From NCBI GenBank assembly GCA_000723505.1, contig HG934468.1, positions 1,706,798 through 1,770,797 on the forward strand: a stretch of DNA of 64,000 bases. Direction: 5' to 3'. Of the stretch, positions 5,145 through 26,385 are shown one piece after another. A model generated the notes under the pieces. It was not told the origin of the DNA, did no database searches, and saw only the letters and a list, made by a program, of their open reading frames with translations. The stretch's first letter is position 1, and every line of letters starts with the position of its first letter. The translations under genes were made by a program, and so were the position numbers. The DNA comes from Mucinivorans hirudinis (GTDB taxonomy: Bacteria; Bacteroidota; Bacteroidia; Bacteroidales; Rikenellaceae).

Positions 5145-6461
5145 ATGTCCCATCTCGCCTCCACAATCGTAGCACCCGCCACCGCCCAAGGCGGAGCAAT
5201 CTCCATAATTCGTCTTAGCGGAAGCAACGGTACGGATATTATAAAAAGGCATTTCAGTCGCCCACTAGAAGATAGACGAGCACTTTTCGGCTCATTCTCA
5301 GATGGTGATAAGATTATAGACGAGGTTGTTGTAACCTACTTCAAAGCTCCACGCTCCTATACGGGAGAAGATTGTGTGGAGATTTCTTGCCACGGTTCTC
5401 AGTGGATAGTTTCGGAAATAGTCCGCTTGCTAATCTCCTCCGGAGCAGTTGCCGCCTCCCCCGGCGAATTCACCCAGCGAGCATTTCTCAACGGCAAAAT
5501 CGCCCTCTCCCAAGCCGAAGCCGTTGCCGACTTGATAGCCTCCGACTCTCGCGCCTCGGCTCAGGTGGCTATTCAGCAGATGCGGGGGGGATATGCACAG
5601 GAGTTAAGAGTTTTGAATTATGAACTATTAAATATTCTGTCTCTACTGGAATTGGAGTTGGATTTTGCGGAAGAGGATGTTGAGTTTGCCGACCGTGGCG
5701 TGCTGGGTGGTCTGATAGAGAAATTGCATTGCCGTGTGAGAGATTTGGCGTCGTCATTCTCGCTGGGCAATGTGCTTAAAAATGGTGTACCGGTAGCCAT
5801 TGTGGGGAAACCTAACGTCGGAAAATCGACACTTTTGAACAGATTGGTGGGCGAAGAGCGCGCCATTGTCTCTTCCGTTGCCGGAACTACGCGCGACTAT
5901 ATTGAGGAGGCAATCACCATTGATGGTATCGTTTTCAGGTTTATTGATACTGCCGGTTTGCGTTCTTCCACCGATGAGATTGAGCTTATCGGCATAGAAC
6001 GCACATATGAAAAATTGCGCCAAGCTGCAATAGTTATTCAATTAATCGACAATATGGATGACGTTGAGGAGTTGTCGTTGTCGGCTGAGCAAAAGTTGAT
6101 GGTTGTTCTCAATAAAATTGATTCAAATCCCACCGTCCCCACTCCCCCCGATACTCTAAAAATCTCTGCAAAAAACGGCATAGGTATCTCGGAGCTACGA
6201 TTCGCCCTACTTTCTCTCATCCCCAAGGGGTCGCTTTCGCAGCACTCTTTGGTAGTAAGTAATGCTCGTCACTATGAGGCGTTACAGCGCGGAGCTTCAG
6301 CCTTTTCACGCGCCCTTCAAGCATTATCCGATGCTCTCCCCAGCGACCTGATCGCCTCCGAAATCCGCAACGGACTCTACTCACTCCAAGAAATCACCGG
6401 CGAAATCACCACAGACGATATTCTCGGCAATATCTTTAAGAATTTCTGCATCGGAAAGTAA
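5145..6461 (+). CDS. mnmE: tRNA uridine-5-carboxymethylaminomethyl modification GTPase MnmE
   Basis: With MnmG, MnmE builds the cmnm5 modification on the wobble uridine of certain tRNAs. All family parts are visible in 438 residues: the N-terminal folate-binding domain (STIVAPATAQGGAISIIRLS, SYTGEDCVEISCHG), a helical domain, and an inserted G domain. That domain shows G1 GKPNVGKST near residue 221, G2 AGTTRDY, G3 DTAGLR, G4 NKID and G5 SAK. The obligatory C-terminal FCIGK carries the essential cysteine. The ATG at 5145 gives the family's usual start. The gene ends 172 bp before a tyrosine integrase, so its 3' flank is the left edge of a mobile region. Confidence 0.97.
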   Translation: MSHLASTIVAPATAQGGAISIIRLSGSNGTDIIKRHFSRPLEDRRALFGSFSDGDKIIDEVVVTYFKAPRSYTGEDCVEISCHGSQWIVSEIVRLLISSGAVAASPGEFTQRAFLNGKIALSQAEAVADLIASDSRASAQVAIQQMRGGYAQELRVLNYELLNILSLLELELDFAEEDVEFADRGVLGGLIEKLHCRVRDLASSFSLGNVLKNGVPVAIVGKPNVGKSTLLNRLVGEERAIVSSVAGTTRDYIEEAITIDGIVFRFIDTAGLRSSTDEIELIGIERTYEKLRQAAIVIQLIDNMDDVEELSLSAEQKLMVVLNKIDSNPTVPTPPDTLKISAKNGIGISELRFALLSLIPKGSLSQHSLVVSNARHYEALQRGASAFSRALQALSDALPSDLIASEIRNGLYSLQEITGEITTDDILGNIFKNFCIGK

Positions 6462-6562
6462 CTTAAGAAAACAATATCAAATAAAAAGTAAATAAATATA
6501 CTGTATTTCAGGATATTACATGTTTATTTCCGACTTTGATTATACTTCGCTTTCGATAATAT

Positions 6563-6631
6563 GTCGCAAAATTTGCAACGTATTTGATATTTTTATTACC
6601 TTTGTTGCAAATAACAAGCTAAATTTGCGAC
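6563..6631 (+). promoter_or_regulatory. Integrase promoter flanked by inverted 8-bp motifs
   Basis: A TTTG at 6572-6575 and TACCTTTG at 6597-6604, 21 bases apart, make a good Bacteroidota promoter 30 bases before the integrase ATG. GTCGCAAA (6563-6570) with TTTGCAAC (6572-6579) is mirrored by GTTGCAAA (6604-6611) with TTTGCGAC (6624-6631). The motifs cover or abut both promoter boxes, which suggests an operator or recombinase arm sites. Confidence 0.55.
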
Positions 6632-6633
6632 AC

Positions 6634-7755
6634 ATGGAAATCAAGCTAATCAAACGAGCACTGAAGTCCGGGCGAACATCGCTCGTGCTGGAGTATTATA
6701 GCGGCTACACGGTCGCAGACAACGGTACCACCAAAGCCAATCGCAAGTACGAAACTTTGGAGTACTACCTACACACCAATCCAAAGAACAAAGAGGAGCG
6801 AGACCACAATAAAATCAATCTCGAAATGGCAGAGAGGGTCAAAGCCAAACGCCTACTCGCCGAGCAGAACAAGCAGTATGGTTTCTCGGTCGAGTATAAG
6901 ATCCGCACCAATCTCGTTGAGTACATCAAGCGGTTAATAAACGAAAGGAAAGAGTCGCCCGGCAACTACGGCAATTGGGATAGTGCCCTGAAACACCTTG
7001 TCGCTTACGCAGGTTCAGATACTACTTTCGAGATGGTTGACAAGGCATTTGTGGAGGGTTTCAAAAAATACTTGGCAAAAGATGCTAGAACAAAAAGCAA
7101 CACAAAGCTGTCAGCGAGTAGCCAAAGTAGCTACTTCCTAAAACTCAAAGCCACACTTAATCAAGCTGTTGAAGATGGAATAATCCCCAACACGCCTGCC
7201 GCAAAGGTTAAGCCTGCCAAGCTCGATGATGTGCAGCGTGAGTACCTCACTTTTGAGGAGTTGCGGCGACTTGTCCAAGCTGATTGCAAATACCCTATAC
7301 TGAAAGAGGCGTTTTTGTTTTCGTGTCTGACCGGTATGAGGTGGAGCGACATTCAAAAACTAATGTGGTCTGAGGTGCAAGAGTATGACGGCACAACACG
7401 CATTGTATTCCGCCAAAAGAAGACCAAGGGTTTTGAGTATCTCGACATTTCCGACCAAGCGGTTCGTTTCCTCGGTACACGTCAGAAGCCAGATGATAGA
7501 GTTTTTCATGGCTTAAAATACTCGGCATGGCACAATCTCGCCCTGCGTGAATGGTGCTTAAAGGCTGATATTAAAAAGCACATCACGTTCCATTGTGGTC
7601 GCCACTCGTTCGCCGTTTTGCAGCTATCACTCGGCACTGAAATTTACACTGTATCAAAACTACTCGGACACAAAGAGCTGAAAACCACCCAAATTTACGC
7701 CCAGATAATGGACGACAAAAAACGTGAGGCGGTAAATAAAATACCTGAATTATAA
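6634..7755 (+). CDS. Tyrosine recombinase / integrase of the first mobile element
   Basis: Site-specific recombinase that would integrate and excise the element to its right. I start it at 6634 (MEIKLIKRALKSGR): the upstream in-frame extension to 6520 lies in promoter sequence, and -7/-33 boxes sit just before 6634. The 373-residue protein has an N-terminal arm-binding segment, a SAM-like core-binding domain (about 85-190) and a catalytic domain. Visible catalytic residues are Arg in TGMRWSDI, Lys in KTKGFEYL, His/Arg in HCGRHSF, His in LLGHKELKTT and the nucleophile in QIYAQIM. This is the Bacteroides phage/transposon integrase layout. I could not identify att sites. Confidence 0.93.
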   Translation: MEIKLIKRALKSGRTSLVLEYYSGYTVADNGTTKANRKYETLEYYLHTNPKNKEERDHNKINLEMAERVKAKRLLAEQNKQYGFSVEYKIRTNLVEYIKRLINERKESPGNYGNWDSALKHLVAYAGSDTTFEMVDKAFVEGFKKYLAKDARTKSNTKLSASSQSSYFLKLKATLNQAVEDGIIPNTPAAKVKPAKLDDVQREYLTFEELRRLVQADCKYPILKEAFLFSCLTGMRWSDIQKLMWSEVQEYDGTTRIVFRQKKTKGFEYLDISDQAVRFLGTRQKPDDRVFHGLKYSAWHNLALREWCLKADIKKHITFHCGRHSFAVLQLSLGTEIYTVSKLLGHKELKTTQIYAQIMDDKKREAVNKIPEL

Positions 7756-11179: not shown

Positions 11180-11287
11180 AAGTCGAAAGTTAAAGTTAAG
11201 CAAGTTTATGTCGGCGTTTAACATCTCCGACCCACTTGCCTCCCGATGGTCAGAAAATTTAGAATTATGAAATTCTCATAATCTCCT

Positions 11288-11319: not shown

Positions 11320-12510
11320 CCTATTGATTAACTAACACTATGTTCAATGGAAGAGATACTATTTACCCCCTACATTGGGGTTGGTTGCGGGATTGATGTC
11401 CATAAGGATTTGATAGTTGCAACCATTCAACGAGGCAACGAAGTTGTCGGCACAAAGGAGTTTGACGGTTTTACCGTTTCCTTGGAATCTTTGCGTGATT
11501 GGTGCAAAGATGCGGGTGTCACTCATATTGCGATGGAGAGCACCGGTATTTATTGGAAGCCTGTGTTCAATATTTTGGAGGATGATTTTGAGGTTATTTT
11601 GGTTAATGCTCGGCACGTAAAGAATGTGCCTGGTCATAAGACCGACAAGAAGGATAGCAAATGGTTGAGCAAATTATTGGTAAGCGGACTACTCAAAGGT
11701 AGCTTTATCCCTCCACGCGACATAAGAGATTTACGAGATTTAGTTCGCTACAAGAAGAAGTTAGTAGCTCATAGTGCATCAGAGAAGAATCGTATAATCA
11801 AGATATTGGAGGATTGCAATATCAAGTTATCAAGTGTATTGAGTGATGTTGATGGAGCCGTTGGTCGCAATATCATCAGTGCATTGATAGATGGAGAGAG
11901 TGATGTAAATCAATTAATGCGGTTTTATCACGGCAAGATAAAGACACCTCGTAGTGAGTTTGTCAAAGCTTTGCAGGGTAAGGTTAGCGATCATCATCGT
12001 TTTATGTTGCAGTTTCATCGAGATGTGATAGCTAATGATGATGCTATGTTGGAGCGGTTGGATGCAGAAATAGCCAAGGCTGTTTCTGATTATGAAGTTG
12101 AATTGGAGCTATTGGAGACCATACCGGGTGTTGGGCGAGATAGTGCCATTGGTATTATAAGCGAGATAGGTGTTGATATGGAACGATTTCCTGATGAGAA
12201 CCATTTAAGTTCTTATTGTGGTGTAAGTCCGGGCAATAATGAGAGTGCGGGTAAAAAAAAAGTACAAAGACCATAAAGGGTAATAGCCATATTACTTCGA
12301 TATTGGTAGAGTGTGGGTGGGGGGCAACACGTAAGAAGGATTGTTATTTGAAGCGAAAGTATGAGAGTTTGGTAGGCAGACGAGGTAAGAAGCGAGCACT
12401 TGTAGCCATTGGGCATAAAATTATTGTAGCCGCATACTTCATTTTGTGGGAGTGTAATATAAACTCTGTCCGGTAAATATTTCGAGTTAAATTTCTACAA
12501 ATATAATTTT

Positions 12511-12645
12511 TTCTTTTCGGCTTTACAAATGCTTTTTCAAGGCGGTTTTTGGATGTGTGCAAGGGCGGCGAGGCACGAGCCGTTTATATACCCTTGCTCA
12601 CATCCGGAAACTGCCTTTTCTTTGCGTTTGGAAAACCGAAAAGAA
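12511..12645 (-). repeat. Long imperfect inverted repeat behind the IS256 transposase gene
   Basis: Arms of about 55 bases (12511-12565 and 12591-12645) can pair with scattered mismatches. The outer TTCTTTTCGG/CCGAAAAGAA and the inner part near GGATGTGNGCAAGGG are almost perfect. It starts 10 bases past the transposase stop, so it may end the transcript or block read-through between element and host. Confidence 0.65.
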
Positions 12646-12655
12646 TAAACAAGGG

Positions 12656-13873
12656 CTATAACTCCATAGGCATCCTTTCGCCAAACTTTATCCGTAATTG
12701 ACCTGCTGTTAACGCCCAATTCGGAAGGGGTTGAGTCCATTTCTTGGAGATGTTGAGCACCGCTAAGTAGAGTAACTTCATCAATGCCATATCATTAGGG
12801 AAAACACCCTTCGTCTTGGTAACTTTCCGTGCCTGACGATGAAATCCCTCAACAGCATTAGTTGTGTAGATAAGTCTGCGAATATGCTCATCATAAGCAA
12901 AATAGGCACTAAGCTTATCCCAATTTCGTCGCCACGAGCCTATAACAACAGGGTATTTCTGCCCCCATTTATCCTCCAATTTATCAAGATTGAGTTCGGC
13001 TAAATCCAGAGTGGGAGCTTGATAGACCGTCTTCAAATCACCCATAAACTCCTTTTTGTCTTTGGAGGCAATGTATTTCAATGAGTTGCGGATTTGATGA
13101 ACGATGCAGCTCTGAATGATTACTTGCGGGAAAATGGTGGCTATTGCCTCGGCAAAGCCCGTAAGGTTGTCAATGCAGGCAATCAAAACATCTTTCATCC
13201 CACGTGCTTTCAAATCGGTCAATACACTCAACCAGAAGTTCGCTCCCTCACTCTCAGATACATACATCCCGATTAACTCTTTGCGACCATCCTTATTGAC
13301 TGCCAGCACATTATAAACGGCTCGGCTCTCCGTACGTCCACCATCTTTGACCTTGTAGTGCATCGCATCGAGCCAAACGATAGTGTACATCGACTCCAAA
13401 GGACGACTTTGCCACTCCTTGACCTTGGGAACTATACGTTCGATAATTTCACTCAGCGTATTGTGCGATATCTCAACGTCATACATCTCTTCGATATGAG
13501 CAGATATATCCCTCAGGCTCATACCCATACCATACAAACTGATGATCTTGGAGGACATATTATCCGCCAAAATGGTCTCCCGTTTCCTGAGAATCTCGGG
13601 TGTAAAACTGCTATGACGATCCTGAGGTGTCTCTATTTCAATCTCACCTGCCATCGTTTTGACTCGTTTGCTTCCTCGACCGTTACGCTTGTTGCCTTGC
13701 TGGCGTTCCGCCTCGTCGAGATGAGCTGCCATTTCGCCATCCAAAGCGGCTTCTAAAAATTCTTTCAACAGTGGAGCAAATGCCCCATCTTTGCCCGTGA
13801 GTGACTCCCCACTCCGAAGCTGAGATAATGCCTTATCACGCATTATTTGATACTCCTGACTTCTCCTATCCAT
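12656..13873 (-). CDS. IS256-family (Mutator) transposase
   Basis: DDE transposase of 405 residues, a full family length. The catalytic Asp residues are in IVWLDAMHYK and LIACIDNLTGF, and the Glu is in NAVEGFHRQARK. The N-terminus has the usual EFLEAALDGEMAAHLDEAE segment and the TPRD/TFxPEI-like region (ETPQDRHSSFTPEIL). The HTH-like SLRDISAHIEEMY precedes the catalytic core. The ATG at 13873 lies 45 bases inside the element's right end. The gene appears intact. Confidence 0.95.
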   Translation of the reverse strand: MDRRSQEYQIMRDKALSQLRSGESLTGKDGAFAPLLKEFLEAALDGEMAAHLDEAERQQGNKRNGRGSKRVKTMAGEIEIETPQDRHSSFTPEILRKRETILADNMSSKIISLYGMGMSLRDISAHIEEMYDVEISHNTLSEIIERIVPKVKEWQSRPLESMYTIVWLDAMHYKVKDGGRTESRAVYNVLAVNKDGRKELIGMYVSESEGANFWLSVLTDLKARGMKDVLIACIDNLTGFAEAIATIFPQVIIQSCIVHQIRNSLKYIASKDKKEFMGDLKTVYQAPTLDLAELNLDKLEDKWGQKYPVVIGSWRRNWDKLSAYFAYDEHIRRLIYTTNAVEGFHRQARKVTKTKGVFPNDMALMKLLYLAVLNISKKWTQPLPNWALTAGQLRIKFGERMPMEL

Positions 13874-14322: not shown

Positions 14323-14628
14323 ATGAAAGATTATTTTTTAGGGCTTCGGCTCACCTATTCAGAGTTTCATCGACTCGGAGCAATGAGCCGAAAAAGCGGC
14401 AAGAGCAAAAGTGAAATTGTGCGAGATTTACTCTCTCACGGCTACGTCCGTGAACGCATCAAGCGAGAGCATATCGACACCATTCGCAAGCTCACAGGCG
14501 AGGCGACCAATCTCAATCAACTTGCCAAACGAGCCAACACCTTCGGCTACTCGGCTGCCGCAACAGGTGTCGAAGTGCTTGCTGCACGAATAGAGGGAAT
14601 CATAAAGATGATAAAAGATGATGGCTAA
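14323..14628 (+). CDS. MobC-like mobilization (relaxosome) protein
   Basis: Protein of 101 residues with an N-terminal ribbon-helix-helix-like segment (YFLGLRLTYSEFHRLGAMSR) and the MobC pattern SEIVRDLLSHGYV, EATNLNQLAKRANTFG. It would bind oriT and help the relaxase nick. It overlaps the relaxase start by 8 bases, so they are translationally coupled. Its ATGAAA start is the right junction of IS110 copy 1; the original promoter and ribosome site are now 3 kb away, replaced by IS sequence. Confidence 0.85.
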   Translation: MKDYFLGLRLTYSEFHRLGAMSRKSGKSKSEIVRDLLSHGYVRERIKREHIDTIRKLTGEATNLNQLAKRANTFGYSAAATGVEVLAARIEGIIKMIKDDG

Positions 14629-15538
14629 AATTGTCAAGGGCAAGACCTTTAGCGGTTGCGTGAGATACGTGCTCGACAAGGAGAAAGCGGAGCTGTTAGA
14701 GACCACAGGGCTACAATTGGGAGATTCTTCGCAAATCGCCTCAGACTTTGAGTTGCAAGCAATGCTCAACCCCAAAGTCAAGAACACAGTCGGACACATA
14801 TCGCTCAACTTCGCATTGCAAGATGAGCGGCTCGCTGGCGATGACTCTTTGATGCTGACAATAACCAAAGAGTATCTGGAGCGTATGGATATTCGCAACA
14901 CTCAATATCTAATCGCTCGCCACACCGACCGCAACCACAGCCATTGCCACATCATTTACAACCGAGTCGATTGCGACGGAAAAACCATCTCCGACAAAAA
15001 CGACCGATTCCGCAGCGAGAAGATTTGTAAAATGCTAACCGCCAGACACCGCCTCCACTTTGCCCAAGGCAAAGAGCAGGTCAACGAGAACCGCCTGCGA
15101 CACAAGGATGCAAAGAAGTACCACATCTACAATGCAATAAAGGCAACATTGCCCATTTGTCGCTCGTGGGAGAGTTTTCAGAACAGACTCGATGCACAGG
15201 GCGTAAATATGGAGTTTAAGTACAAAAGCGGCAGCGACGAGCGGCAAGGGGTTAAATTTGAGTATGACGGTGTTAGCTTCTCAGGCTCAAAGATTGACCG
15301 AGCGTACAGCTTTATGCACCTTGATAACCATTTTGCCAATCAGAACCACCACAGAGTCGAACGCCACGTATCACAAGCCGCTGCTCAAACCGAACATAGC
15401 GTGGCGAGCGAAGTGGCTGGCGGACTACTCTCAATCCTCTCATCGCCATTGGAAGTCAATGGCAACTACGAAGATCAAGCCGAATTCGACCGTCTGGAAA
15501 GACTCAAAAAGAAGAAACGGCGAGGTCGAAGAATGTAA
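14621..15538 (+). CDS. Relaxase, MobA/VirD2-like (MobP type)
   Basis: DNA strand-transferase that nicks oriT for conjugal mobilization. About 305 residues from the ATG at 14621 (MAKIVKGKTFSGCVRYVL), one codon after an alternative ATG. The nucleophilic Tyr is probably in CVRYVLDKEKA. The metal site is the HUH-type HTDRNHSHCHIIYNRV near residue 100. The rest of the relaxase domain (NRLRHKDAKKYHIYNAI, GVSFSGSKIDRAYSF) is present and ends in a basic tail (KKKKRRGRRM). No type IV secretion genes are in the window, so the element is mobilizable and not self-transmissible as seen here. Confidence 0.9.
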   Translation: MAKIVKGKTFSGCVRYVLDKEKAELLETTGLQLGDSSQIASDFELQAMLNPKVKNTVGHISLNFALQDERLAGDDSLMLTITKEYLERMDIRNTQYLIARHTDRNHSHCHIIYNRVDCDGKTISDKNDRFRSEKICKMLTARHRLHFAQGKEQVNENRLRHKDAKKYHIYNAIKATLPICRSWESFQNRLDAQGVNMEFKYKSGSDERQGVKFEYDGVSFSGSKIDRAYSFMHLDNHFANQNHHRVERHVSQAAAQTEHSVASEVAGGLLSILSSPLEVNGNYEDQAEFDRLERLKKKKRRGRRM

Positions 15539-15568: not shown

Positions 15569-16006
15569 ATGAAAACTACATCAAAAGTCAATTACGACAA
15601 TTTTTTAGCAGACTTCAATCTCTACTTGTGCGAATGGTTCGCCGAGCGAGACGCTGCTCAATTCAATCACATCTCCAACGGAATGATTTTTACCGCCAAA
15701 ACCATAGATTTCGACCTCTATATTCGGCTATGGGAACATAGCGGAGGTATGGGGTTGCCTGATGGCACGGTTATTATCGCCAGAGCAGTGTTCTCGAAAG
15801 ACGAGCACCGCAATTTTGAAAATCTCTTGTATTTTCTCAAAATGTACGCTCCTCTCTACGGCTTTACCAATATTGCCATCGAATTTCCGCCAATTAATAG
15901 TGTTGGTGATTTGAGTCGCTATGGTTTTGCCGCCTCGGACAACTCATTAGCAAGTAAGTGGCACTACACGACCTTTGAGTCGTTGCAAGTGCCTTCCAAA
16001 ATGTAA
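15569..16006 (+). CDS. Hypothetical protein behind the relaxase
   Basis: Not recognised. It has 145 residues and is soluble, with aromatic-rich strands (FDLYIRLWEHSGGMGLPDGT) and a region resembling a small alpha/beta or GNAT-like fold (NFENLLYFLKMYAPLYGFTN). It starts 30 bases after the relaxase stop with a good ATG and ends just before a large stem-loop. Codon use resembles the mobilization genes, so it probably belongs to that module. Confidence 0.7.
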   Translation: MKTTSKVNYDNFLADFNLYLCEWFAERDAAQFNHISNGMIFTAKTIDFDLYIRLWEHSGGMGLPDGTVIIARAVFSKDEHRNFENLLYFLKMYAPLYGFTNIAIEFPPINSVGDLSRYGFAASDNSLASKWHYTTFESLQVPSKM

Positions 16007-16010
16007 CGCA

Positions 16011-16136
16011 GCCAATGCCTTTGTTCGCAAAGGTAAAGCCTAAAAACCAAGCAGTCAAGACCGTGCAAAGTTGCTACGCAAGTCTTGACTGCTTATTTTG
16101 TTAGGCTAAATGCTAGTCGCTACCAAAGGCAATGGC
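16011..16136 (+). repeat. Large three-tier inverted repeat between mobilization and restriction genes
   Basis: Three nested arm pairs share one axis. The outer pair is GCCAATGCCTTTG (16011-16023) with CAAAGGCAATGGC (16124-16136), one mismatch. The middle is GCCTAA (16038-16043) with TTAGGC (16101-16106). The inner is AAGCAGTCAAGAC (16049-16061) with GTCTTGACTGCTT (16082-16094), perfect. The inner hairpin followed by ATTTTGTT can act as a terminator; the whole could also be an oriT, an end of the element or a folded RNA. Confidence 0.75.
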
Positions 16137-16147
16137 TCAGAGTAATG

Positions 16148-16179
16148 CTTGTACTATTGAATTATATTATATATCTTTG
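16148..16179 (+). promoter_or_regulatory. Promoter of the type I restriction operon
   Basis: TATCTTTG (16172-16179) is a consensus -7 box. CTTG (16148-16151) lies 20 bases upstream as an imperfect -33. The regulator ATG follows at 16210. Confidence 0.6.
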
Positions 16180-16209: not shown

Positions 16210-16407
16210 ATGAATCGAATAAAAGAAGTTTTAGAGAGCAAAGGTATATCGCAAACATGGCTTGCCAAGCAACTTGGCAAGAGTTTTTGTATGGTCAACG
16301 CCTATGCTTGCAACCGCCGACAACCCAATTTAGAGCTACTCTTCGAGATAGCAAAAATTTTGGAAGTGGACGTGAAAGAATTAATTGAAAGCAAAGAAGA
16401 AAAATAA
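16210..16407 (+). CDS. XRE-family helix-turn-helix regulator of the restriction operon
   Basis: Single-domain Cro/CI-type repressor of 65 residues starting at the ATG at 16210 (MNRIKEVLESKGISQTWLAK), downstream of the promoter; the longer frame starts inside a repeat. The recognition helix is in QLGKSFCMVNAYACNRRQ. It ends 3 bases before hsdM, so it is co-transcribed. It probably delays or limits restriction expression. It closely resembles the regulator at 43726-43932 in the other defence-like operon. Confidence 0.88.
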   Translation: MNRIKEVLESKGISQTWLAKQLGKSFCMVNAYACNRRQPNLELLFEIAKILEVDVKELIESKEEK

Positions 16408-16410
16408 TAT

Positions 16411-18864
16411 ATGGCAATTAAAAAATCTGAGTTATATAATACTCTATGGAAAAGTTGTGACGAACTTAGAGGGGGGATGGATGCAAGCCAATACAAAGAT
16501 TATGTATTGGTTATGCTCTTTGTGAAGTATATTAGTGACAAATCAAAGAATGATAAGAATTTTTCGATTGATATTCCGAATGGATGTTATTTTGATGATT
16601 TTATTGCTCTTAAAGGCAAAGACTCGATAGGCGAAGGAATAAACAAGATATTAGAAAAATTAGCAGATGCCAACACACAATTAACAAGTGTAATTACGGT
16701 GGCTGATTTTGCTGATGAAAGTAAATTAGGTAAAGGAGACGATCTAATAAAGACCGTTAGTAACTTGATTGGAGTGTTTCAATCATCGGGATTAGACTTT
16801 GGCAAGAATCGCTCGGAAGATGATGATCTGATGGGTGATGCCTATGAATATTTAATGAAGAACTTTGCCACTGAGAGTGGGAAAAGTAAGGGGCAATTTT
16901 ATACGCCAGCAGAAGTTAGTCGTGTAATGGCAAAGGTTATCGGGATTCAACGAGCAAAGAGTGCTAACGAATCGCTTTATGACCCAACTTGTGGTTCGGG
17001 CTCTCTGCTACTAAAAGCTCTTGCTGAAGCACCCGTGGAGGTTACAGTGTATGGTCAGGAGAAAGATGTTGCTACTCACGGTTTGGCGAAAATGAATATG
17101 ATATTGCACGGAATTGACGATGCTGATATTCGCCAAGGAGATACGATTAATGATCCGCAGCTAAAAGAGAACGATACTTTACGCACTTTTGACTACATAG
17201 TTGCAAATCCTCCATTTTCAACAAAATCTTGGTTAAAGAGTGCAAAATCAGAAGATACCTATGGTCGTTGGGGCTCAAAAATTGGAATACCACCCGAGAA
17301 AAACGGAGATTATGCTTTTCTACTGCATATCATTCGTTCATTGAAACAGTATGGTACAGGAGCGTGCATCTTACCTCACGGTGTTTTGTTTCGTGGCAAT
17401 GCGGAGTATGCTATTCGTAAAAATATCATCAAGTACATTAAAGGCATAATAGGACTTCCGTCAAATTTATTTTTTGGAACAGGTATTCCTGCTTGTATCT
17501 TGATATTGGATAAACGAGACGCTGATAATCGGAAGGGGATCTTTATGATAGACGCCAAGGGTGGATACGTTAAAGATGGAGCCAAAAACCGACTCAGAGA
17601 GCAAGATGTTCGTCGTATTGTAGACGTATGGGAGGCTCACAAAGATGTGCCACATTATGCTCGTTTTGTCTCTTTTGATGAGATAGAGACTTCCAATGAT
17701 TTCAATTTGAATTTACCACGATATATTCCGTCTGCTGATAGTGAGATTTTGCAAGATATTGAGGCACATCTGCAAGGAGGATTACCACTTCACGACATTG
17801 AACAGATGGAGCAGTATTGGAGCTCTTGCCCGACATTACGTGGTGAGCTATTTGTAGAAAATACGCCACGTGTTGGATATGCTCAATTGAAAGTATCGAA
17901 ATCAGAGATACGTCAAACGATACAGGTCAATCGTGATTATCAAACGCAGTCGCAACTGTTCCGTCGTCATTTAGATGATTGGAAGAGTGAAGTTAGCCCC
18001 AAATTATTTGCACTCAATCAAGGAATCAAACCCAAGGGCTATGCCAAGGAGCTGGGTGATTCTATTTTACGCCATTTTATTCAAGATGCACTTTTGGTGG
18101 ATGGCTATAATGCCTATGACGTATTTATGAACTATTGGAATGAGACGATGCAAGATGATTTGTATTTGATTTCTGAGGTTGGTTGGTGTGCCGAGCTTTA
18201 TGTTCCACAGCCGGCAGAGAAGAAGAGCAAAAGTGGCGAAGTGAAAAAGTCGAAACGCAAGGAGCCGAAATCAATCTATGACCTTGCCTGCGATTTGTTA
18301 CCTGTTGATTTGGTTGTTAAGAGATATTTTGATGATTTGAGCCAGACTCTTGCCTCTGCCGAGGAGCAGTTGGCTGAGTATGAGAGCCAGAAAGCAGAGA
18401 TGGAGGAGATGTATAAGGAAGACTACCTTGATGAGACGGTTTTTGAAGGTAAGAAGATAACCGATGCGTCGTTGAAAAAGCGAGAGAAACTACTCAAAGA
18501 TACCAAGTCGGACAAAGAAGAGCGGAATGTAATAGCTTGTTACATTGACCTTCGTGGCTCTATTTCGGCAGCAAAGAGGGTTATTCGTGTATGCAATACA
18601 GATTTATTGGCTTTGGTGGTTGGCAAATATAAGGAGTTAAGCTCTGATGAGGTTCGTGATATGGTTGTCGATGATAAGTGGTTTGGCACGTTGACACATA
18701 GGCTTGAGGAACAAATGGTACAGATTAGTCAACAACTCACCTCTTCGGTTGTCTCGCTCGTGGAGCGTTACGAGAGCACCTTACCGGAGCTCGATCGCAC
18801 TGCTCAAGAGTTAGAAGATAAAGTAACCGCCCATTTACGTACAATGGGATTTAATTGGGCATAA
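16411..18864 (+). CDS. hsdM: Type I restriction-modification DNA methyltransferase subunit
   Basis: Adenine-N6 methyltransferase of the HsdR2M2S1 complex, 817 residues. The N-terminal helical N12-type domain (LYNTLWKSCDELRGGMDASQ) is followed by the catalytic domain: SAM motif I DPTCGSGSLLLKA near residue 190 and the NPPF catalytic motif near 266 (VANPPFSTKSW). It is longer than the usual 500-550 residues. The extra C-terminal third (about 500-817) contains a Lys-rich linker (KKSKSGEVKKSKRK) and a long coiled coil, the form seen in many Bacteroidetes HsdM. HsdS starts 2 bases past its stop. Confidence 0.95.
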   Translation: MAIKKSELYNTLWKSCDELRGGMDASQYKDYVLVMLFVKYISDKSKNDKNFSIDIPNGCYFDDFIALKGKDSIGEGINKILEKLADANTQLTSVITVADFADESKLGKGDDLIKTVSNLIGVFQSSGLDFGKNRSEDDDLMGDAYEYLMKNFATESGKSKGQFYTPAEVSRVMAKVIGIQRAKSANESLYDPTCGSGSLLLKALAEAPVEVTVYGQEKDVATHGLAKMNMILHGIDDADIRQGDTINDPQLKENDTLRTFDYIVANPPFSTKSWLKSAKSEDTYGRWGSKIGIPPEKNGDYAFLLHIIRSLKQYGTGACILPHGVLFRGNAEYAIRKNIIKYIKGIIGLPSNLFFGTGIPACILILDKRDADNRKGIFMIDAKGGYVKDGAKNRLREQDVRRIVDVWEAHKDVPHYARFVSFDEIETSNDFNLNLPRYIPSADSEILQDIEAHLQGGLPLHDIEQMEQYWSSCPTLRGELFVENTPRVGYAQLKVSKSEIRQTIQVNRDYQTQSQLFRRHLDDWKSEVSPKLFALNQGIKPKGYAKELGDSILRHFIQDALLVDGYNAYDVFMNYWNETMQDDLYLISEVGWCAELYVPQPAEKKSKSGEVKKSKRKEPKSIYDLACDLLPVDLVVKRYFDDLSQTLASAEEQLAEYESQKAEMEEMYKEDYLDETVFEGKKITDASLKKREKLLKDTKSDKEERNVIACYIDLRGSISAAKRVIRVCNTDLLALVVGKYKELSSDEVRDMVVDDKWFGTLTHRLEEQMVQISQQLTSSVVSLVERYESTLPELDRTAQELEDKVTAHLRTMGFNWA

Positions 18865-18866
18865 CT

Positions 18867-20078
18867 ATGGAGACAATACGCAAAGGTTACAAACAGACTG
18901 ACATTGGTATTATTCCAGAGGATTGGGAAGTGAAAACAATAGGCAAGATTTTCACATCATTCCCTACTGCTTCGTTTAGTCGAGAACAATTAGGAGATGG
19001 AAATGTGAAATATATTCACTATGGTGACATACACACTAAATTTGGTGCGATAGTTAATGTTGAAACAACTGATTTGCCAACTGTTTCGGATAGTCAATCA
19101 AATAGATATGTTAAACTAAAAAACGGAGATATAATACTTGCCGATGCCTCAGAAGACTATGAGGGAGTTGGAAAATGTATAGAAATTTTGAATTGTCAAA
19201 ATACGCCAGCAATCTCAGGTTTACACACAATCCCTTTAAGAGATTCTAATAATGAGTTTGTTGATGGATTACGGGGGTACATATTTCAGAGTAAGAATGT
19301 AAAAAGCCAGTTAGATAGACAAGCGGTAGGCACAAAAGTTTACAGTATATCTTATAACTCTATTAAAGAGTGCCTGATTCCTATTCCAACAAAAATTGAG
19401 CAGCGAGCAATTGCGGAGGTATTGAGTGAGATTGATTTGTTGATTGAGGTGTTGGACAAAAAGATAGCCAAAAAGCGAGCCATCAAAGACGGAGCAATGC
19501 AACAACTACTCACCGCAAAAAAACGCCTCCCCGGATTCTCTGACCCTTGGGTCGAGAAGAAACTTGGAGATATCTTAGATTACGAACAACCAACTAACTA
19601 CATTATACAATGTAATGATTATTTGGACTCTGGTATTCCTGTATTAACTGCAGGCAAGACGTTTATACTTGGATATACTCATGAAACTACAGGCATTTAC
19701 GATAATGTACCGGTAATTATATTTGACGACTTTACTACAGCGTCAAAATATGTTGATTTTCCTTTCAAGGTAAAATCCTCTGCAATGAAAATTCTCACCA
19801 TTAACAATATAGATTATAATCTACGCTTTATTTTTGAGCTGATGCAAATCATAGATTTTCCCTTATCTGACCATCAAAGATATTGGATATCGGAGTATAG
19901 CGAGTTAATCATACAACTACCCAATAATCGAAAAGAACAGCAAGCGATTGCTGAAATTCTAACCGATATGGACGATGAAATAGAGCTATTAGAGCAACAA
20001 CGCTCAAAATACACCGCCCTCAAACAAGGCGCAATGCAACAACTCCTAACAGGACAAATAAGACTTAAAACAAAATAA
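18867..20078 (+). CDS. hsdS: Type I restriction-modification specificity subunit
   Basis: DNA-sequence recognition subunit, about 403 residues from the ATG at 18867 (METIRKGYKQTDIGIIPEDW). Two target recognition domains (about 10-165 and 215-350) are each followed by a conserved helical spacer: EQRAIAEVLSEIDLLIEVLD with GAMQQLLTAKKRLPG, and EQQAIAEILTDMDDEIELLE with GAMQQLLTGQIRL. Only one specificity gene is present, and no inverted repeats suggesting TRD shuffling were seen. Confidence 0.95.
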   Translation: METIRKGYKQTDIGIIPEDWEVKTIGKIFTSFPTASFSREQLGDGNVKYIHYGDIHTKFGAIVNVETTDLPTVSDSQSNRYVKLKNGDIILADASEDYEGVGKCIEILNCQNTPAISGLHTIPLRDSNNEFVDGLRGYIFQSKNVKSQLDRQAVGTKVYSISYNSIKECLIPIPTKIEQRAIAEVLSEIDLLIEVLDKKIAKKRAIKDGAMQQLLTAKKRLPGFSDPWVEKKLGDILDYEQPTNYIIQCNDYLDSGIPVLTAGKTFILGYTHETTGIYDNVPVIIFDDFTTASKYVDFPFKVKSSAMKILTINNIDYNLRFIFELMQIIDFPLSDHQRYWISEYSELIIQLPNNRKEQQAIAEILTDMDDEIELLEQQRSKYTALKQGAMQQLLTGQIRLKTK

Positions 20079-20089
20079 AAATAATAACA

Positions 20090-20476
20090 ATGGAAGTTAA
20101 ATTAACAACAAATGATGCGGATATTATTAGCACTGGTAGTGTAATAATTCCCAAAGATAAGTATGTTGAATTTGAGATAGAGAACTTAAAGTTTAGAATT
20201 GAATTCGTGCTTGATAAAAACGATGATGGAACCTTAAAGGAAAGTCGAATAGCTACAAATGTTGTTGGAGAAGCACCAGAGCAAAGACTTGAAATCAGAT
20301 TCATTAATCACGTAAATTTATTTATGGCTACTCCTCCCTCAATTTTCCATGCTGCAACAATCAATAATCGCTCCTTGCTTTTGAATTTTGCAATAATGTC
20401 TCTCAATAACTCCAATGTTGAGATCGAAAGCAAATTATTTCATTATACCTGGTGTCTTAAAAAGGAGGGGGAGTAA
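20090..20476 (+). CDS. Hypothetical protein in the restriction operon
   Basis: A 128-residue soluble beta-rich protein (KYVEFEIENLKFRIEFVLD, LEIRFINHVNLFMATPPSIF) of a small uncharacterised family often found beside a tiny membrane protein; I recall the family as DUF6864-like but cannot verify it. It starts 12 bases after hsdS and ends 2 bases before the next gene, so it is part of the operon. It is probably an accessory restriction or standalone anti-phage gene. Confidence 0.75.
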   Translation: MEVKLTTNDADIISTGSVIIPKDKYVEFEIENLKFRIEFVLDKNDDGTLKESRIATNVVGEAPEQRLEIRFINHVNLFMATPPSIFHAATINNRSLLLNFAIMSLNNSNVEIESKLFHYTWCLKKEGE

Positions 20477-20478
20477 CT

Positions 20479-20856
20479 ATGAGTAATACATATATCACAC
20501 CATCGAATACGGGTTATCCCAGCAGCTTAAAAGAGATTAAGTTAACCCAAGAGCATGAACAAATAATAACTGCAGCAAAAAACACTCATGAATTAGCACT
20601 TAAGGAGAGCGATCATCTTCACGAGTTAAAAAAGATTGATAAAATATTAGGACAAATTGGTAGGTTTTTTGGTGGAGAAGAACATGCATCTAGAAATATA
20701 ACAGCAACAATATGTTTATCCCTAATATTTGGTGCAACCATTGTTTCTGTAATAGTTTATTTCGGCGAAAAAGATATATTGTTTATTAAGAGTATTTGGA
20801 TTAGCATTATTCCTGTAATAAGTTTATCATTAGGCTACCTTTTCGGTAAAAAATAA
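20479..20856 (+). CDS. Small protein with two membrane segments in the restriction operon
   Basis: A 125-residue protein, not recognised. Residues 1-70 are soluble and helical (EHEQIITAAKNTHELALKES). Two membrane helices follow (ATICLSLIFGATIVSVIVYF and SIWISIIPVISLSLGYLFG), ending in GKK. Gene spacing of 2 and 5 bases ties it to the preceding hypothetical gene and to hsdR. The pair of a soluble and a membrane protein resembles effector-sensor pairs in defence islands, but this is only context. Confidence 0.75.
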   Translation: MSNTYITPSNTGYPSSLKEIKLTQEHEQIITAAKNTHELALKESDHLHELKKIDKILGQIGRFFGGEEHASRNITATICLSLIFGATIVSVIVYFGEKDILFIKSIWISIIPVISLSLGYLFGKK

Positions 20857-20861
20857 ATACT

Positions 20862-23800
20862 ATGACACACATCGGCGAAATAGAGCGTATAACGCAAAAT
20901 AGATTGGTGCGGTTGTTTGAGCAAAACCTCAAATACACATACCTCGGTAATTGGGAAGAGCGTGAGGATAACCGAAATATAGAAGAGGAGTTACTCCAAA
21001 AATCACTTCTAAGCAGAGGATATACGCAACAAGAGGTCGCAAAGGCAATCCCAAAGCTAAAAGAGGTGGCTAACAACATAACCCCCGGACTATACAACGC
21101 AAATAAAGAGGTGTATGGTTTGTTACGCTATGGCGTGAATATCAAAACCGACGCCGACAAAAACTCCAAACAAATCCACCTAATCGACTGGGGAAATCCC
21201 CTTGCAAATGATTTTGCTTTCGCCCAAGAGGTCAGTATCAGAGGTTGCAATACAAAGCGTCCTGATATTGTGATATATGTTAATGGTATAGCCCTTGCTG
21301 TGATTGAGCTCAAACGCTCGACGGTATCTGTGTCTGAGGGTATTCGCCAAAACTTAGACAATCAAGAGGAGCACTTTATTCAACCGTTTTTCACTACCGT
21401 TCAATTACTATTTGCAGGTAACGACTCGCAAGGACTACATTATGGAGTAATCAAAACAAAAGAAAAATTCTGGTTGCGGTGGAAAGAAAAAGACGATTCA
21501 ATAGCAAATGAGCTCGACCGTAGTACAATGCAAATGTTCAATAAAGAGCGGTTACTCGAATTTATTAAAGATTTCTTAATCTTTGACGGCGGTATCAAAA
21601 AAGCGGCACGTCCAAATCAATACTTCGCCATCAAAGCTGCCCAACCACGTGTTAGAACCAAAGACAGTGGGATTATATGGCACTCGCAAGGCTCTGGAAA
21701 AAGCCTCACGATGGTGTGGTTGGCAAAGTGGATTATCAAAAATATTGATGATGCTCGAATTGTGATTATCACAGACCGTGATGAACTCGACCGCCAAATA
21801 GAAGGCAATTTCCTTGACACAGGAGAAGAGATAGTTAGAGCTAAATCAGGAGACCAGCTAATCACTGCACTCAACAAAGCAACACCTTCGCTTATATGTT
21901 CGCTTATACACAAGTTTGGAAATAATTCCGATGAGCAAGCTATTGAGGTTGGTGGAAAACGATCAACAAAATCGCTCGAGAAATACATCGAAGACCTAAA
22001 AACTCAAAAACTACCAAAAGGTTTCGCGGCAAAAGGTAATATCTTTGTCTTCATAGATGAGTGCCACCGAACTCAAGGCGGCACACTCCACGAGGCAATG
22101 AAAATCATTATGGGCGAAGATGTGATGCTCATTGGTTTTACGGGAACTCCATTGCTAAAAACTGATAAAAAAAGTTCTGCCGAAACATTCCTTCCCCGAA
22201 ATAATAATTTAACGCCATATATTCATACTTATAAATTTGATGAAGCTGTTGAGGATAAAGTTATTCTTGACCTTAGATATGAAGCCAGAGATGTAGAACA
22301 ATATTTGGGCAAAGAAGAGAAGTTAGACGAATGGTTTGAGTCTCATACTATTGGTCTATCATCAGTTGCAAAAGCGGCACTTAAAGATCGTTGGGTGAAA
22401 CTCGAAAAACTATTCTCGAGCAAAGAGAGAATGCAGAGAATAGTGGCTGACATCTGTATGGATATGGATAAAAAGCCAGCTCTCTCATCTGGATATGGAA
22501 ATGCTATGCTTGTTGCCGATAGCATTTATCAAGCCTATAGATATTGGGACTTGTTTCAGTCTACCGCACTCAAAGAGAATTGTGCTGTTGTTACAAGCTA
22601 TGATGCAAATATTGCAGATATCAAAGGCGAAACAACGGGTGATGGTGATGGAGAGGCGAAATTCAAATATGATGCAGCCAAGAGAATGATGGGTGATAGA
22701 AAAGTTGATGAGTTTGAGCAATGGGCTAAAAATGAGTTTATCAAACATCCAGCGTCTATGAAATTGCTTATTGTTGTCGACAAACTTCTTACCGGTTTTG
22801 ATGCTCCAGCGGCAACATATATGTATATTGATAAAAAGATGCAAAATCACGACCTATTCCAAGCTATATGCCGAGTCAATAGAGTTGACGAGGAAGATAA
22901 AGACTATGGGTATATTGTCGATTATCAAGATCTTTTTAATTCAATTCGAAATGCCATTGAAGACTACACGTCAGAAGCGTTAGACGGATATGATAAAGAA
23001 GATATAGAGGGTCTGCTCTCAAATAGGTTGGAGGAGGCGAAAAAAGATTTGGACGAGGCTCTACAATGTGTAATAACTCTATGTGAGGTCGTGATTCCGC
23101 AAACAAGAGAGGCGTATTTCGAATACTTTGTGTATGGTAACAACACCCCTTTTGATGAGCAACCAGCAGAAAGCGAGGCGAATGCAGAGAAACGTGAAAA
23201 ACTGTATAAATTAGTCGGAAACTTGGTTCGGCGATATGTGAATATTGCTAATGAAATGGCAGGTGCAGGTTATTCGCAAGAAGAGGCTGCCGACATCAAA
23301 AAAAGAGTAGATTATTACAATAGCATAAAAGATGAAATTAAGCTCAAAAGTGGTGATGCTCTTGATTTGAAACGATTTGACCCAATGATGAGGCAATTAA
23401 TTGATAATTGGGTACGTGCAGATGACAGCGAAAAACTATTTGAATTTGAAGACATTTCCTTCTTAGACTTAATAGATAAAGAAGGTTATGATGCAATTGA
23501 TAAGCTCCCTACATCAATTAAAAGTAGTGAAAAATCTGTTGCAGAGACTCTTCTGGCTAATATGTATAGAGTTGTTAATAGTGAAAGACCTAATAATCCT
23601 GCATATTATGACAAGGTATCTCAGATGCTTAGACAGCTTTTAGAGGATGTGAAAAACGGCAAATTATCATACAAAGAACTAATCGATAAGCTCATCCAGA
23701 AAGTTAGAGACGTTAAAAATCAAAAAGGGGCATATCCGGCAAACATATCCACCTTGGGCTTAAAGGCACTTTATGATAACCTTGAAAAGGATGAAGAGCT

Positions 23801-23975
23801 AGCCATCAAGGTTCATTATGCAGTCAAAAATAGTGCTAAAGATAGTTGGAGAGATTTGAGTGTGCCAACTAAAATGAGAAAAGTTCGTCGTGCCGTTATG
23901 GAGGCTCTTAACTCCGACGATGATGAGTACATCAGTAAAGTAATGGGGATTATTTTAAGACATAAGGAGTATTGA
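20862..23975 (+). CDS. hsdR: Type I restriction endonuclease subunit
   Basis: Motor and nuclease subunit of 1037 residues that translocates DNA and cuts it when the HsdMS complex meets an unmethylated site. The N-terminal PD-(D/E)xK nuclease is visible as RPDIVIYVNGIALAVIELKR (about 133-152). The SF2 translocase has Walker A HSQGSGKSLTMVW near residue 277, DECHRTQGG near 399, GFTGTPLL near 427 and motif VI AICRVNRVDE. A helical C-terminal domain binds the methylase. All motifs are intact, so restriction should be functional. Its TGA overlaps the next ATG (TGATG). Confidence 0.96.
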   Translation: MTHIGEIERITQNRLVRLFEQNLKYTYLGNWEEREDNRNIEEELLQKSLLSRGYTQQEVAKAIPKLKEVANNITPGLYNANKEVYGLLRYGVNIKTDADKNSKQIHLIDWGNPLANDFAFAQEVSIRGCNTKRPDIVIYVNGIALAVIELKRSTVSVSEGIRQNLDNQEEHFIQPFFTTVQLLFAGNDSQGLHYGVIKTKEKFWLRWKEKDDSIANELDRSTMQMFNKERLLEFIKDFLIFDGGIKKAARPNQYFAIKAAQPRVRTKDSGIIWHSQGSGKSLTMVWLAKWIIKNIDDARIVIITDRDELDRQIEGNFLDTGEEIVRAKSGDQLITALNKATPSLICSLIHKFGNNSDEQAIEVGGKRSTKSLEKYIEDLKTQKLPKGFAAKGNIFVFIDECHRTQGGTLHEAMKIIMGEDVMLIGFTGTPLLKTDKKSSAETFLPRNNNLTPYIHTYKFDEAVEDKVILDLRYEARDVEQYLGKEEKLDEWFESHTIGLSSVAKAALKDRWVKLEKLFSSKERMQRIVADICMDMDKKPALSSGYGNAMLVADSIYQAYRYWDLFQSTALKENCAVVTSYDANIADIKGETTGDGDGEAKFKYDAAKRMMGDRKVDEFEQWAKNEFIKHPASMKLLIVVDKLLTGFDAPAATYMYIDKKMQNHDLFQAICRVNRVDEEDKDYGYIVDYQDLFNSIRNAIEDYTSEALDGYDKEDIEGLLSNRLEEAKKDLDEALQCVITLCEVVIPQTREAYFEYFVYGNNTPFDEQPAESEANAEKREKLYKLVGNLVRRYVNIANEMAGAGYSQEEAADIKKRVDYYNSIKDEIKLKSGDALDLKRFDPMMRQLIDNWVRADDSEKLFEFEDISFLDLIDKEGYDAIDKLPTSIKSSEKSVAETLLANMYRVVNSERPNNPAYYDKVSQMLRQLLEDVKNGKLSYKELIDKLIQKVRDVKNQKGAYPANISTLGLKALYDNLEKDEELAIKVHYAVKNSAKDSWRDLSVPTKMRKVRRAVMEALNSDDDEYISKVMGIILRHKEY

Positions 23976-24670
23976 TGGAATATATTAGCATAGGTAGTTT
24001 GTCTATTGAGGTCATTCGAAAAAACATTAAGAACATACACTTACGTGTATATCCTCCAGATTGTCGCGTTCAGATTTCTGCTCCCGAAAAAATGGAGTTA
24101 GACTCGATTCGTCTTTTTGCAATAACCAAATCGAGTTGGATAAAAAAGAAACAACAAGAGCTAATAGACTATTCAAGACAATCTGAAAGAGAGTATGTGT
24201 CTGGTGAAAATCACTATTTCAAAGGCAAACGATATAGACTGAAGGTGATTTTTCAGCATAATGAACCACATGTTGAGCTGCAAGGTAATCAATTTATGGT
24301 GCTATACGTGAGAAGAGAGGCGACAATTGAGCGTAGGGCTGAGATTGTTAAAGATTGGTATCGTAATAGACTCAAAGAGATAATAGAACCATTAATCTCA
24401 AAGTGGGAAAAGTGCCTCGACGTTACAGTTGAGAACTGGGAACTCAAACAGATGAAAACACTTTGGGGAAGCTGCAATCAAAAAAATAAGAGTATCTTGT
24501 TTAATCTCGAACTTGCAAAAAAACCAATTCATTGCATTGAATATATAATCGCACATGAACTAACCCACCTCGTAGAACGAAACCATAATGAACGGTTCTT
24601 AGCTTTGCTTGATGTAAATATACCTAATTGGAGAATCATCAAGGAAGAGCTAAATGAATTTATTGTGTAA
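23975..24670 (+). CDS. YgjP/SprT-like zinc metallopeptidase
   Basis: Predicted zinc protease of about 231 residues with HELTHLVERNHNERF (about 190-205) giving the HExxH...H site, preceded by the family's WGSCNQKNKSILFNLELA. Members of this DUF45/M48-like family commonly close type I restriction operons. A role in regulating the restriction complex by proteolysis is plausible but unproved. The start is the ATG at 23975 that overlaps the hsdR stop. The operon ends here. Confidence 0.9.
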   Translation: MEYISIGSLSIEVIRKNIKNIHLRVYPPDCRVQISAPEKMELDSIRLFAITKSSWIKKKQQELIDYSRQSEREYVSGENHYFKGKRYRLKVIFQHNEPHVELQGNQFMVLYVRREATIERRAEIVKDWYRNRLKEIIEPLISKWEKCLDVTVENWELKQMKTLWGSCNQKNKSILFNLELAKKPIHCIEYIIAHELTHLVERNHNERFLALLDVNIPNWRIIKEELNEFIV

Positions 24671-24898
24671 TTGTGAAGATTCATATATCATATCTTGGTG
24701 AAATAATAGGCGAATTAACCGCTAACAAAAAAAGCCAATTAAAAGTACACCAATAGTTTGCAACTAATTTACAGTTCAGTCTGTGGTTTAATCATATAAC
24801 TAATTTATTTACAGCGTTTTATATCACGTAAATCTATTACTGCATCGGCAAATAACTCGCTGATTTACAGTGAATTACATTCAAAACATTTTTACTTT

Positions 24899-25115: not shown

Positions 25116-25237
25116 TTTCAGATATTTCCCCCAGAATTTCGCCGCCACTCTGCATTTTAGGTGCAATATCGAGAGAAATAACCACAGACGATATGTTGGC
25201 TTATATCTCTTCATTTTCTGAATTAACAATTAAACAT

Positions 25238-26383: not shown

Positions 26384-26385
26384 TT

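Follow-up and report, generated by a model that had tools for sequence, protein, structure and literature searches.

Sites of the sso type usually lie close to the 3′ end of the displaced strand, so that they become single-stranded late. The sso sites (ssoA with its CS-6 motif, sso1 of ICEBs1) are palindromic single-strand sites at which host RNA polymerase primes the second strand (PMC4595007), and the CS-6 consensus is given as TAGCG(T/A) in two further papers (PMC10333310, PMC10378824). The Frpo/ssi sites of F-like plasmids are described in two reports as long imperfect hairpins of the transferred strand that are said to rebuild host promoter boxes, and their promoters express genes in the recipient (PMC9849209, PMC11541004). 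These sources place single-strand promoters or origins in F-like plasmids, Gram-positive plasmids and ICEBs1 (PMC9849209, PMC11541004, PMC4595007). For Bacteroides, the consensus of the main sigma factor is reported as TAnnTTTG at −7 and TTTG at about −33 (PMC7366714). A literature search for Bacteroides single-strand origins, single-stranded DNA promoters and complementary strand synthesis returned no description of such a site; subscription papers mostly lay outside this search, and earlier reports may exist.

The present analysis concerns a three-tier hairpin at 16010..16137 (128 bases) of a 64,000-nucleotide window, the whole stretch of DNA that was analysed, from Mucinivorans hirudinis. 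Folds, family and covariation identify it, with the minus strand as supposed functional strand and strand of the covariance model. We propose, with moderate confidence, that it may serve as a strand-specific folded promoter or priming site, comparable to sso and Frpo, of an integrative mobilizable element.

The hairpin within its mobilizable element

Arms of 13, 6 and 13 bases with a common axis had been noticed in the original prediction, and the pairing confirms them. The outer arms (16011-16023 and 16124-16136) pair at 12 of 13 positions, with one A-A mismatch, and extend in a repeat search to 16010-16028 and 16119-16137 at 84%; the middle arms (16037-16042 and 16102-16107) pair at 6/6 and the inner arms (16049-16061 and 16082-16094) at 13/13 positions, one axis being common to all three tiers. 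For the stretch 16007-16140 the folding energy is −58.2 kcal/mol on the plus strand and −63.4 kcal/mol on the minus strand, the z-scores of the fold are −7.68 and −7.87, respectively, and none of 200 dinucleotide shuffles equalled it on either strand. The hairpin is far beyond chance and conserved in relatives, unlike a chance combination without any relative. It is not the top fold of the window; among 3992 scanned segments of 128 bases the best lay at about 12513, in another hairpin. The expectation that the structure exceeds a simple terminator was borne out by the relatives, where a T run (at least 6 T in the ten bases 3′ of the hairpin) was found in 0/50 on the plus strand and 12/50 on the minus strand. 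An intrinsic terminator, for which the T run after the stem is wanting, was rejected.

The integrated element runs from the 3′ end of mnmE to about 24857, with the hairpin between the relaxase gene and a type I restriction-modification (R-M) cargo. The 3′ end of mnmE (5145-6461) carries the attL-side repeat (6442..6463), followed by a tyrosine integrase (6520..7755, plus strand, by Pfam) and an oriT-like block, GCAAGTTTATG, with the inverted repeat GTCGG/CCGAC (11200..11231). IS110-type and IS256-type insertion sequences (11347-13873) stand between this block and mobC, parting the two by about 3 kb. On the plus strand there follow mobC, encoding a MobC/NikA-like accessory protein (14323..14628, by Pfam), the relaxase (14618..15538; PF03432, the best NCBIfam models being MOBP/MobB, below their cut-offs) and a 145-aa ORF without family match (15569..16006), which stops 3 bases before the hairpin. 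On the other side, an ordinary double-strand promoter candidate, TTG-N20-TATCTTTG (16149..16179, plus strand, recognized by its sequence), precedes an operon of HTH and R-M genes, namely an XRE-type HTH regulator (16210..16407), HsdM (16411..18864), HsdS (18855..20078) and HsdR (20862..23975), all on the plus strand. Two small ORFs, one with a DUF6864 match and one matchless, lie between hsdS and hsdR (20090-20856). The last gene, for a YgjP-like metallopeptidase (23972..24670, plus strand), is followed by an attR-like repeat of the mnmE 3′ end (24836..24857, best stretch 17/20). Soon after this repeat, a second integrase and an HTH_17 gene at 25193-27498 suggest a tandem element.

Given the attR-like repeat at 24836-24857 and the attL side at mnmE, the hairpin is internal and sits at the junction of backbone and cargo. 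The suggestion that it could be an element end is thus unsupported, and the hairpin was rejected as an att site. A 14-base direct repeat at the hairpin edges was absent from 51/52 loci, several of which have too short a left flank. The companion claim, that the repeat separates the mobile backbone from the cargo, held up: the mobilization backbone meets variable cargo at the hairpin. Pfam neighbours of the family members comprise type I R-M (window), a reverse transcriptase (L176), AbiEii with Mrr (L204), AbiH (L207) and NYN (L202).

A hairpin family with covarying stems

Blast found the hairpin in 3 of 200 genomes of the same family, source genome included. A covariance model was built from six members on the minus strand, because this strand folds better; it matched 39 of 268 genomes of the taxonomic family, in 11 of 22 genera, and 3 of 393 genomes of an order-wide sample (two of the same family, the third weak, E 0.0041), both searches using strict filters that lose weak matches. 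Subtraction of 11 opposite-strand duplicates, one partial match (L006) and the IS256 match from 65 model matches left 52 members, among which L189 and L212, probably the two contig ends of one hairpin, are both counted. A second member occurs in the same genome (G000:C1:2577865-2578030). Within the genus, the source genome alone of four has the hairpin, the other three genomes being 65-84% complete. A similarity search left it unmatched in plasmids and phages, and an exact 24-base pattern in viral contigs and an inner pattern in genome contigs gave zero matches. The original prediction pointed to the ends or oriTs of related elements as places where the repeat might recur; the relatives did yield a family of hairpins, whose member in the window is not the element end and probably not the oriT.

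An early motif search of gathered loci picked the window, L003/L005/L092, L025, L027/L064, L040/L089 and L091; it could miss more diverged members, and the L004 member was known before it. A motif match in L048 was judged spurious, and the HTH gene was abandoned as a guide to hairpin loci, being far more widespread than the hairpin. In L091 the hairpin (1226-1327) lies away from the HTH gene at 7515. The L091 record is titled Clostridia bacterium, and its hairpin is very like those of Alistipes records, so that the contig is probably misbinned.

For covariation, 36 better-scoring members were used, in an alignment fitted to the model, which favours pairing: both sides had changed in 32 of 47 pairs, and pairs filled 89.3% of the paired cells, compared with 72.3% after shuffling and 34.5-52.3% when the partners were slid. 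The changes spare the helix that holds GTAGCG/CTTTGC (0/6 pairs changed on both sides; 10/13 and 18/22 in the flanking helices). The stems, the outer one included, vary freely in sequence and the internal loops are near-invariant, a conservation that is partly selected, since the model used to retrieve the members contains the motif columns. Fixed in sequence are GTAGCG in the 5′ arm and CTTTGC in the 3′ arm, with a family motif TTG-N19-21-TAnnTTTG on the strand corresponding to the window minus strand. The hairpin represents a well-supported new family of DNA hairpins.

Strong covariation together with near-invariant internal loops is also what one would expect of a structured RNA, either a non-coding RNA or a 3′-UTR element with a conserved internal-loop motif, as had been considered from the outset. 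For a known RNA the answer is negative: among the Rfam covariance models none matched the hairpin at the gathering score and none credibly at relaxed E. A new RNA is conceivable, but only 2 of 50 members show a promoter-like match on the better-folding strand in the 250 nt before the hairpin, and the fixed TTG-N20-TAnnTTTG would go unexplained. We regard an RNA as improbable.

Integron attC sites are folded imperfect hairpins with an unpaired spacer and extrahelical bases, found at cassette borders. An attC-like joint for the exchange of cargo and backbone modules would accord with the many pairs of relatives that lose homology within a few bases of the hairpin edge, on either side. The left homology of L187/L195 (5.6 kb) ends at offset 0 and the right homology of L171/L175 (about 1.8 kb) starts at offset 0; in L173 and L174 an extra gene, GNAT-like by eye, stands between the relaxase stop and the hairpin, compared with a few dozen bases in L172 and L175, and homology resumes at the edge. 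Other pairs, however, are alike well past the edge (L177/L178 to +253, L091/L166 to +1803), and homologous recombination inside a shared site of 130 bases, or functional conservation, would give the same breakpoints. Moreover, the conserved parts are promoter-like with an outer stem that varies freely, and a single family hairpin was found in the element of the window, all of which makes a recombination joint distinctly improbable.

A promoter-like motif on the folded strand

The minus-strand 3′ arm of the window reads CTTG-N20-TACCTTTGCG. Sequence and family spacing identify a −33-like TTG in it (16056..16058, minus strand; CAA on plus), which is followed after 20 bases by a −7-like element, TACCTTTG (16028..16035, minus strand), assigned from sequence and the family motif count. 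A conserved block of the 5′ arm, GTAGCGACTAGC (16112..16123, minus strand), faces the −7 element and is part of two internal loops. Behind the TTG, at least five of the six fixed bases of TAnnTTTG are present in 42 of the 52 members and all six in 31, the two n positions being freer than the fixed bases; at the level of five or more, the controls matched in 1/52 (opposite strand) and 114/10400 (shuffles). In the 47 members with four or more matching bases, the spacing is 20 (33 members), 21 (9) or 19 (5). Among 163 ordinary promoter candidates taken from this DNA, the TTG stands at spacing 20 in 21 and at 19 in 11, with 0-7 at the other spacings, and the spacing of the hairpin motif is that of these ordinary candidates, which constitutes an independent calibration. 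In DNA folds the A of the −7 box is open in 37/43 and the base ten further on in 31/43, with the spacer mostly paired, and the model strand (window minus) folds better in 47/52 members. The motif is weak in group 3, where an integrase stands beside the hairpin and TTCC or worse replaces TTTG, and the conserved CCTTG may be part of a shared apical motif instead of a −33 box.

A scan for promoters located in hairpins picked out 1 of the 15 promoter-like matches of the window. In the family loci it picked out 25 of 113, of which 20 were the family hairpin and 5 lay elsewhere, a background of 5 in 25; for other Bacteroidota loci the figure was 7 of 150. The seven comprise two known members (L091, L092), a second hairpin of similar design in L082 and L086 and three weaker cases. 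L082 and L086, from Paraprevotella xylaniphila and Bacteroides faecichinchillae, respectively, carry, around 6100-6260, a hairpin of unrelated sequence whose 3′ arm contains TTG-N19-TACCTTTGC and whose −7 region is open; by gene names we take both to be the same CTnDOT-like type of element. An ordinary promoter could equally account for this case.

The promoter points along the 3′ arm from loop to base, so that the polymerase would exit by the 5′ flank, using the same strand as template. The steps envisaged for a folded promoter would then be as follows. On transfer of the element the minus strand, as the putative transferred strand, would become single-stranded and fold into the hairpin, whose 3′ arm, paired with the 5′ arm of the same strand, would rebuild the Bacteroidota promoter TTG-N20-TACCTTTG; the A of the −7 box and a position near the start site would already be open. 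The host RNA polymerase, carrying the main sigma factor, would start there, within a region that promoter polarity puts at 16121..16137 (RNA of plus sense, copied from the folded minus strand toward the R-M genes), leave the base of the hairpin and copy the 5′ flank. The resulting RNA could serve as a primer for the second strand over cargo and integrase; in the window element it might double as sense RNA for the HTH and hsdM-S-R genes. A double-strand promoter needs no covarying arm and an RNA needs no promoter of fixed spacing; a folded promoter strand needs both. The choice of transferred strand, the use by polymerase, the priming and zygotic expression are what we infer for this site.

Unlikely, in our estimate, is a double-strand antisense promoter combined with an insulator at the 3′ ends of mobile genes, where antisense RNA would act against relaxase, integrase or transposase and the inverted repeat would block transcription. 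The nearest left ORF is indeed sense in 41 of 52 loci (8 antisense, 3 none), and 30 of these 41 end within 50 bases of the hairpin, with the motif reading back into the left ORF; the IS256 hairpin described below shares the topology, and the IS hairpins have a T-rich stretch after the inner stem. What such a promoter would leave unexplained is that a 5′ arm covaries with the promoter spacer, that the A of the −7 box is open and that one strand folds better than the other; the T-run counts among the relatives likewise go against it.

Hairpin orientation is constant toward the PF03432 relaxase (21/21 C0 ORFs in 20 loci) and toward the C10 relaxase cluster (4/4 ORFs), one tested member of which is Mob_Pre; as the orientation is fixed with both classes, the hairpin is not specific to one relaxase. 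Neither class occurs within 5.5 kb in 28 of the 52 loci, many of them cut by contig ends. Conversely, 40 of 60 further relaxase matches were followed up, 6 in the source genome and 34 in others: 37 of these loci had no promoter hairpin within about 5 kb, and the remaining ones comprised one promoter hairpin on the expected strand and two weak ones on the other strand, the scan counting 1/41 opposite-strand and 2/29 same-strand matches. In L259, from another family of the order, a further hairpin with a promoter (79% paired) is found about 1.9 kb upstream of the point where the relaxase gene ends, on the opposite strand to this gene. The family, its covariation, the promoter-like motif with its spacing, the predicted open positions and the orientation to the mob genes are all computed observations.

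Origins of transfer contain inverted repeats, and the hairpin adjoins a relaxase gene, both in favour of the mobilization origin that the original prediction had listed first; this reading found no support, and we consider it highly improbable. Upstream of the mob genes, both here and in relatives, there is a separate conserved oriT-like block, GCAAGTTTRTG plus an inverted repeat of variable sequence. It is present in exact form in 10 of the 52 hairpin loci, many of which are too short to reach it, where 0.6 matches are expected by chance, is co-directional with the relaxase in 10/10 exact matches, and recurs in 16 of the 40 further relaxase loci, among them all six others examined in the source genome. 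With 37 of 40 loci of the same relaxase class lacking the hairpin, and with the hairpin accompanying two relaxase classes, it is probably not the oriT of the element. In the usual anatomy of an oriT, the inverted repeat lies on the 5′ side of the nick in the strand that is cut; by this rule the anatomy of the oriT-like block suggests that the better-folding minus strand is the one transferred. The hairpin lies about 4.8 kb from the block, two insertion sequences included, on what would be the late side; in L189 the order is reversed.

In the window the promoter direction is sense for HTH and hsdM-S-R. Sense expression of the cargo is not borne out as a general role by the nearest right-hand ORFs (determined mechanically, at least 100 aa, within 1.5 kb), which are sense in 24, antisense in 25 and missing in 3 of the 52 loci, and this split makes second-strand priming the likelier general role than driving cargo.

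The strongest hairpin of the window (12510-12646, DNA z −8.93), similar in design to the one at 16010..16137, lies just after the stop of the IS256-type transposase, and the stretch has eleven near-full copies in the genome, window copy included. The relatives found in three other genomes differ from it entirely in their stems and keep the apical motif and TTG-N20-TTTCTTTG, one having N21 and TTTCTTCG instead. With folds judged by eye, the hairpin is present in 3/3 distinct IS256 3′ ends at ≥73% identity and in 0/16 distant ones (≤54% identity), 4 of the 16 being copies of a single IS within the same genome; another 8 IS256 loci were left out, their 3′ end uncovered or their flank too short. 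Copy-out transposition could yield a single-stranded circle. The hairpins of IS256 and of the islands could either provide a strand-specific start on single-stranded circles or act as antisense promoters or insulators. The presence of such a hairpin on an IS256-type transposon, which has no conjugative stage, lowers confidence in a purely conjugative role and points to a broader class. It is a tentative generalization, more doubtful than the local proposal, that mobile DNA of Bacteroidota may possess its own class of folded single-strand promoter (TTG-N20-TAnnTTTG), in mobilizable islands and an IS256-type transposon, possibly on a single-stranded circle, by which the element would be read or copied before it is double-stranded, here possibly with the R-M operon first in the new host. 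If the folded-promoter reading is right, it would account for the start-up of gut Bacteroidota islands after entry into a new cell, early expression of the R-M cargo would become testable, and the covariance model would locate such elements.

Comparison with known systems

The hairpin resembles attC as a folded imperfect hairpin at a module border and differs from it in that no conserved R-box was seen and the conserved part matches a promoter. With a MOBP oriT it shares an inverted repeat near the relaxase gene, but the element has its separate oriT-like block. As to the CS-6 motif of sso, TAGCG occurs in 47 of the 52 members and is followed by A or T in 39, a five-base match that may be due to chance; unlike in ssoA, TAGCG lies opposite the supposed start region and not in a terminator loop. 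On plasmid F, intended as a positive control, a sigma-70 version of the scan gave 0 matches at Frpo, and the Frpo fold showed no clear box; the likeness to Frpo is one of description. In contrast to Frpo, the hairpin follows the Bacteroidota promoter consensus, measures about 130 bases, has no fixed cargo orientation and lies beside the mob genes. What it would have in common with Frpo is a hairpin stable on one strand, host promoter boxes at their native spacing and a promoter arm that runs from loop to base.
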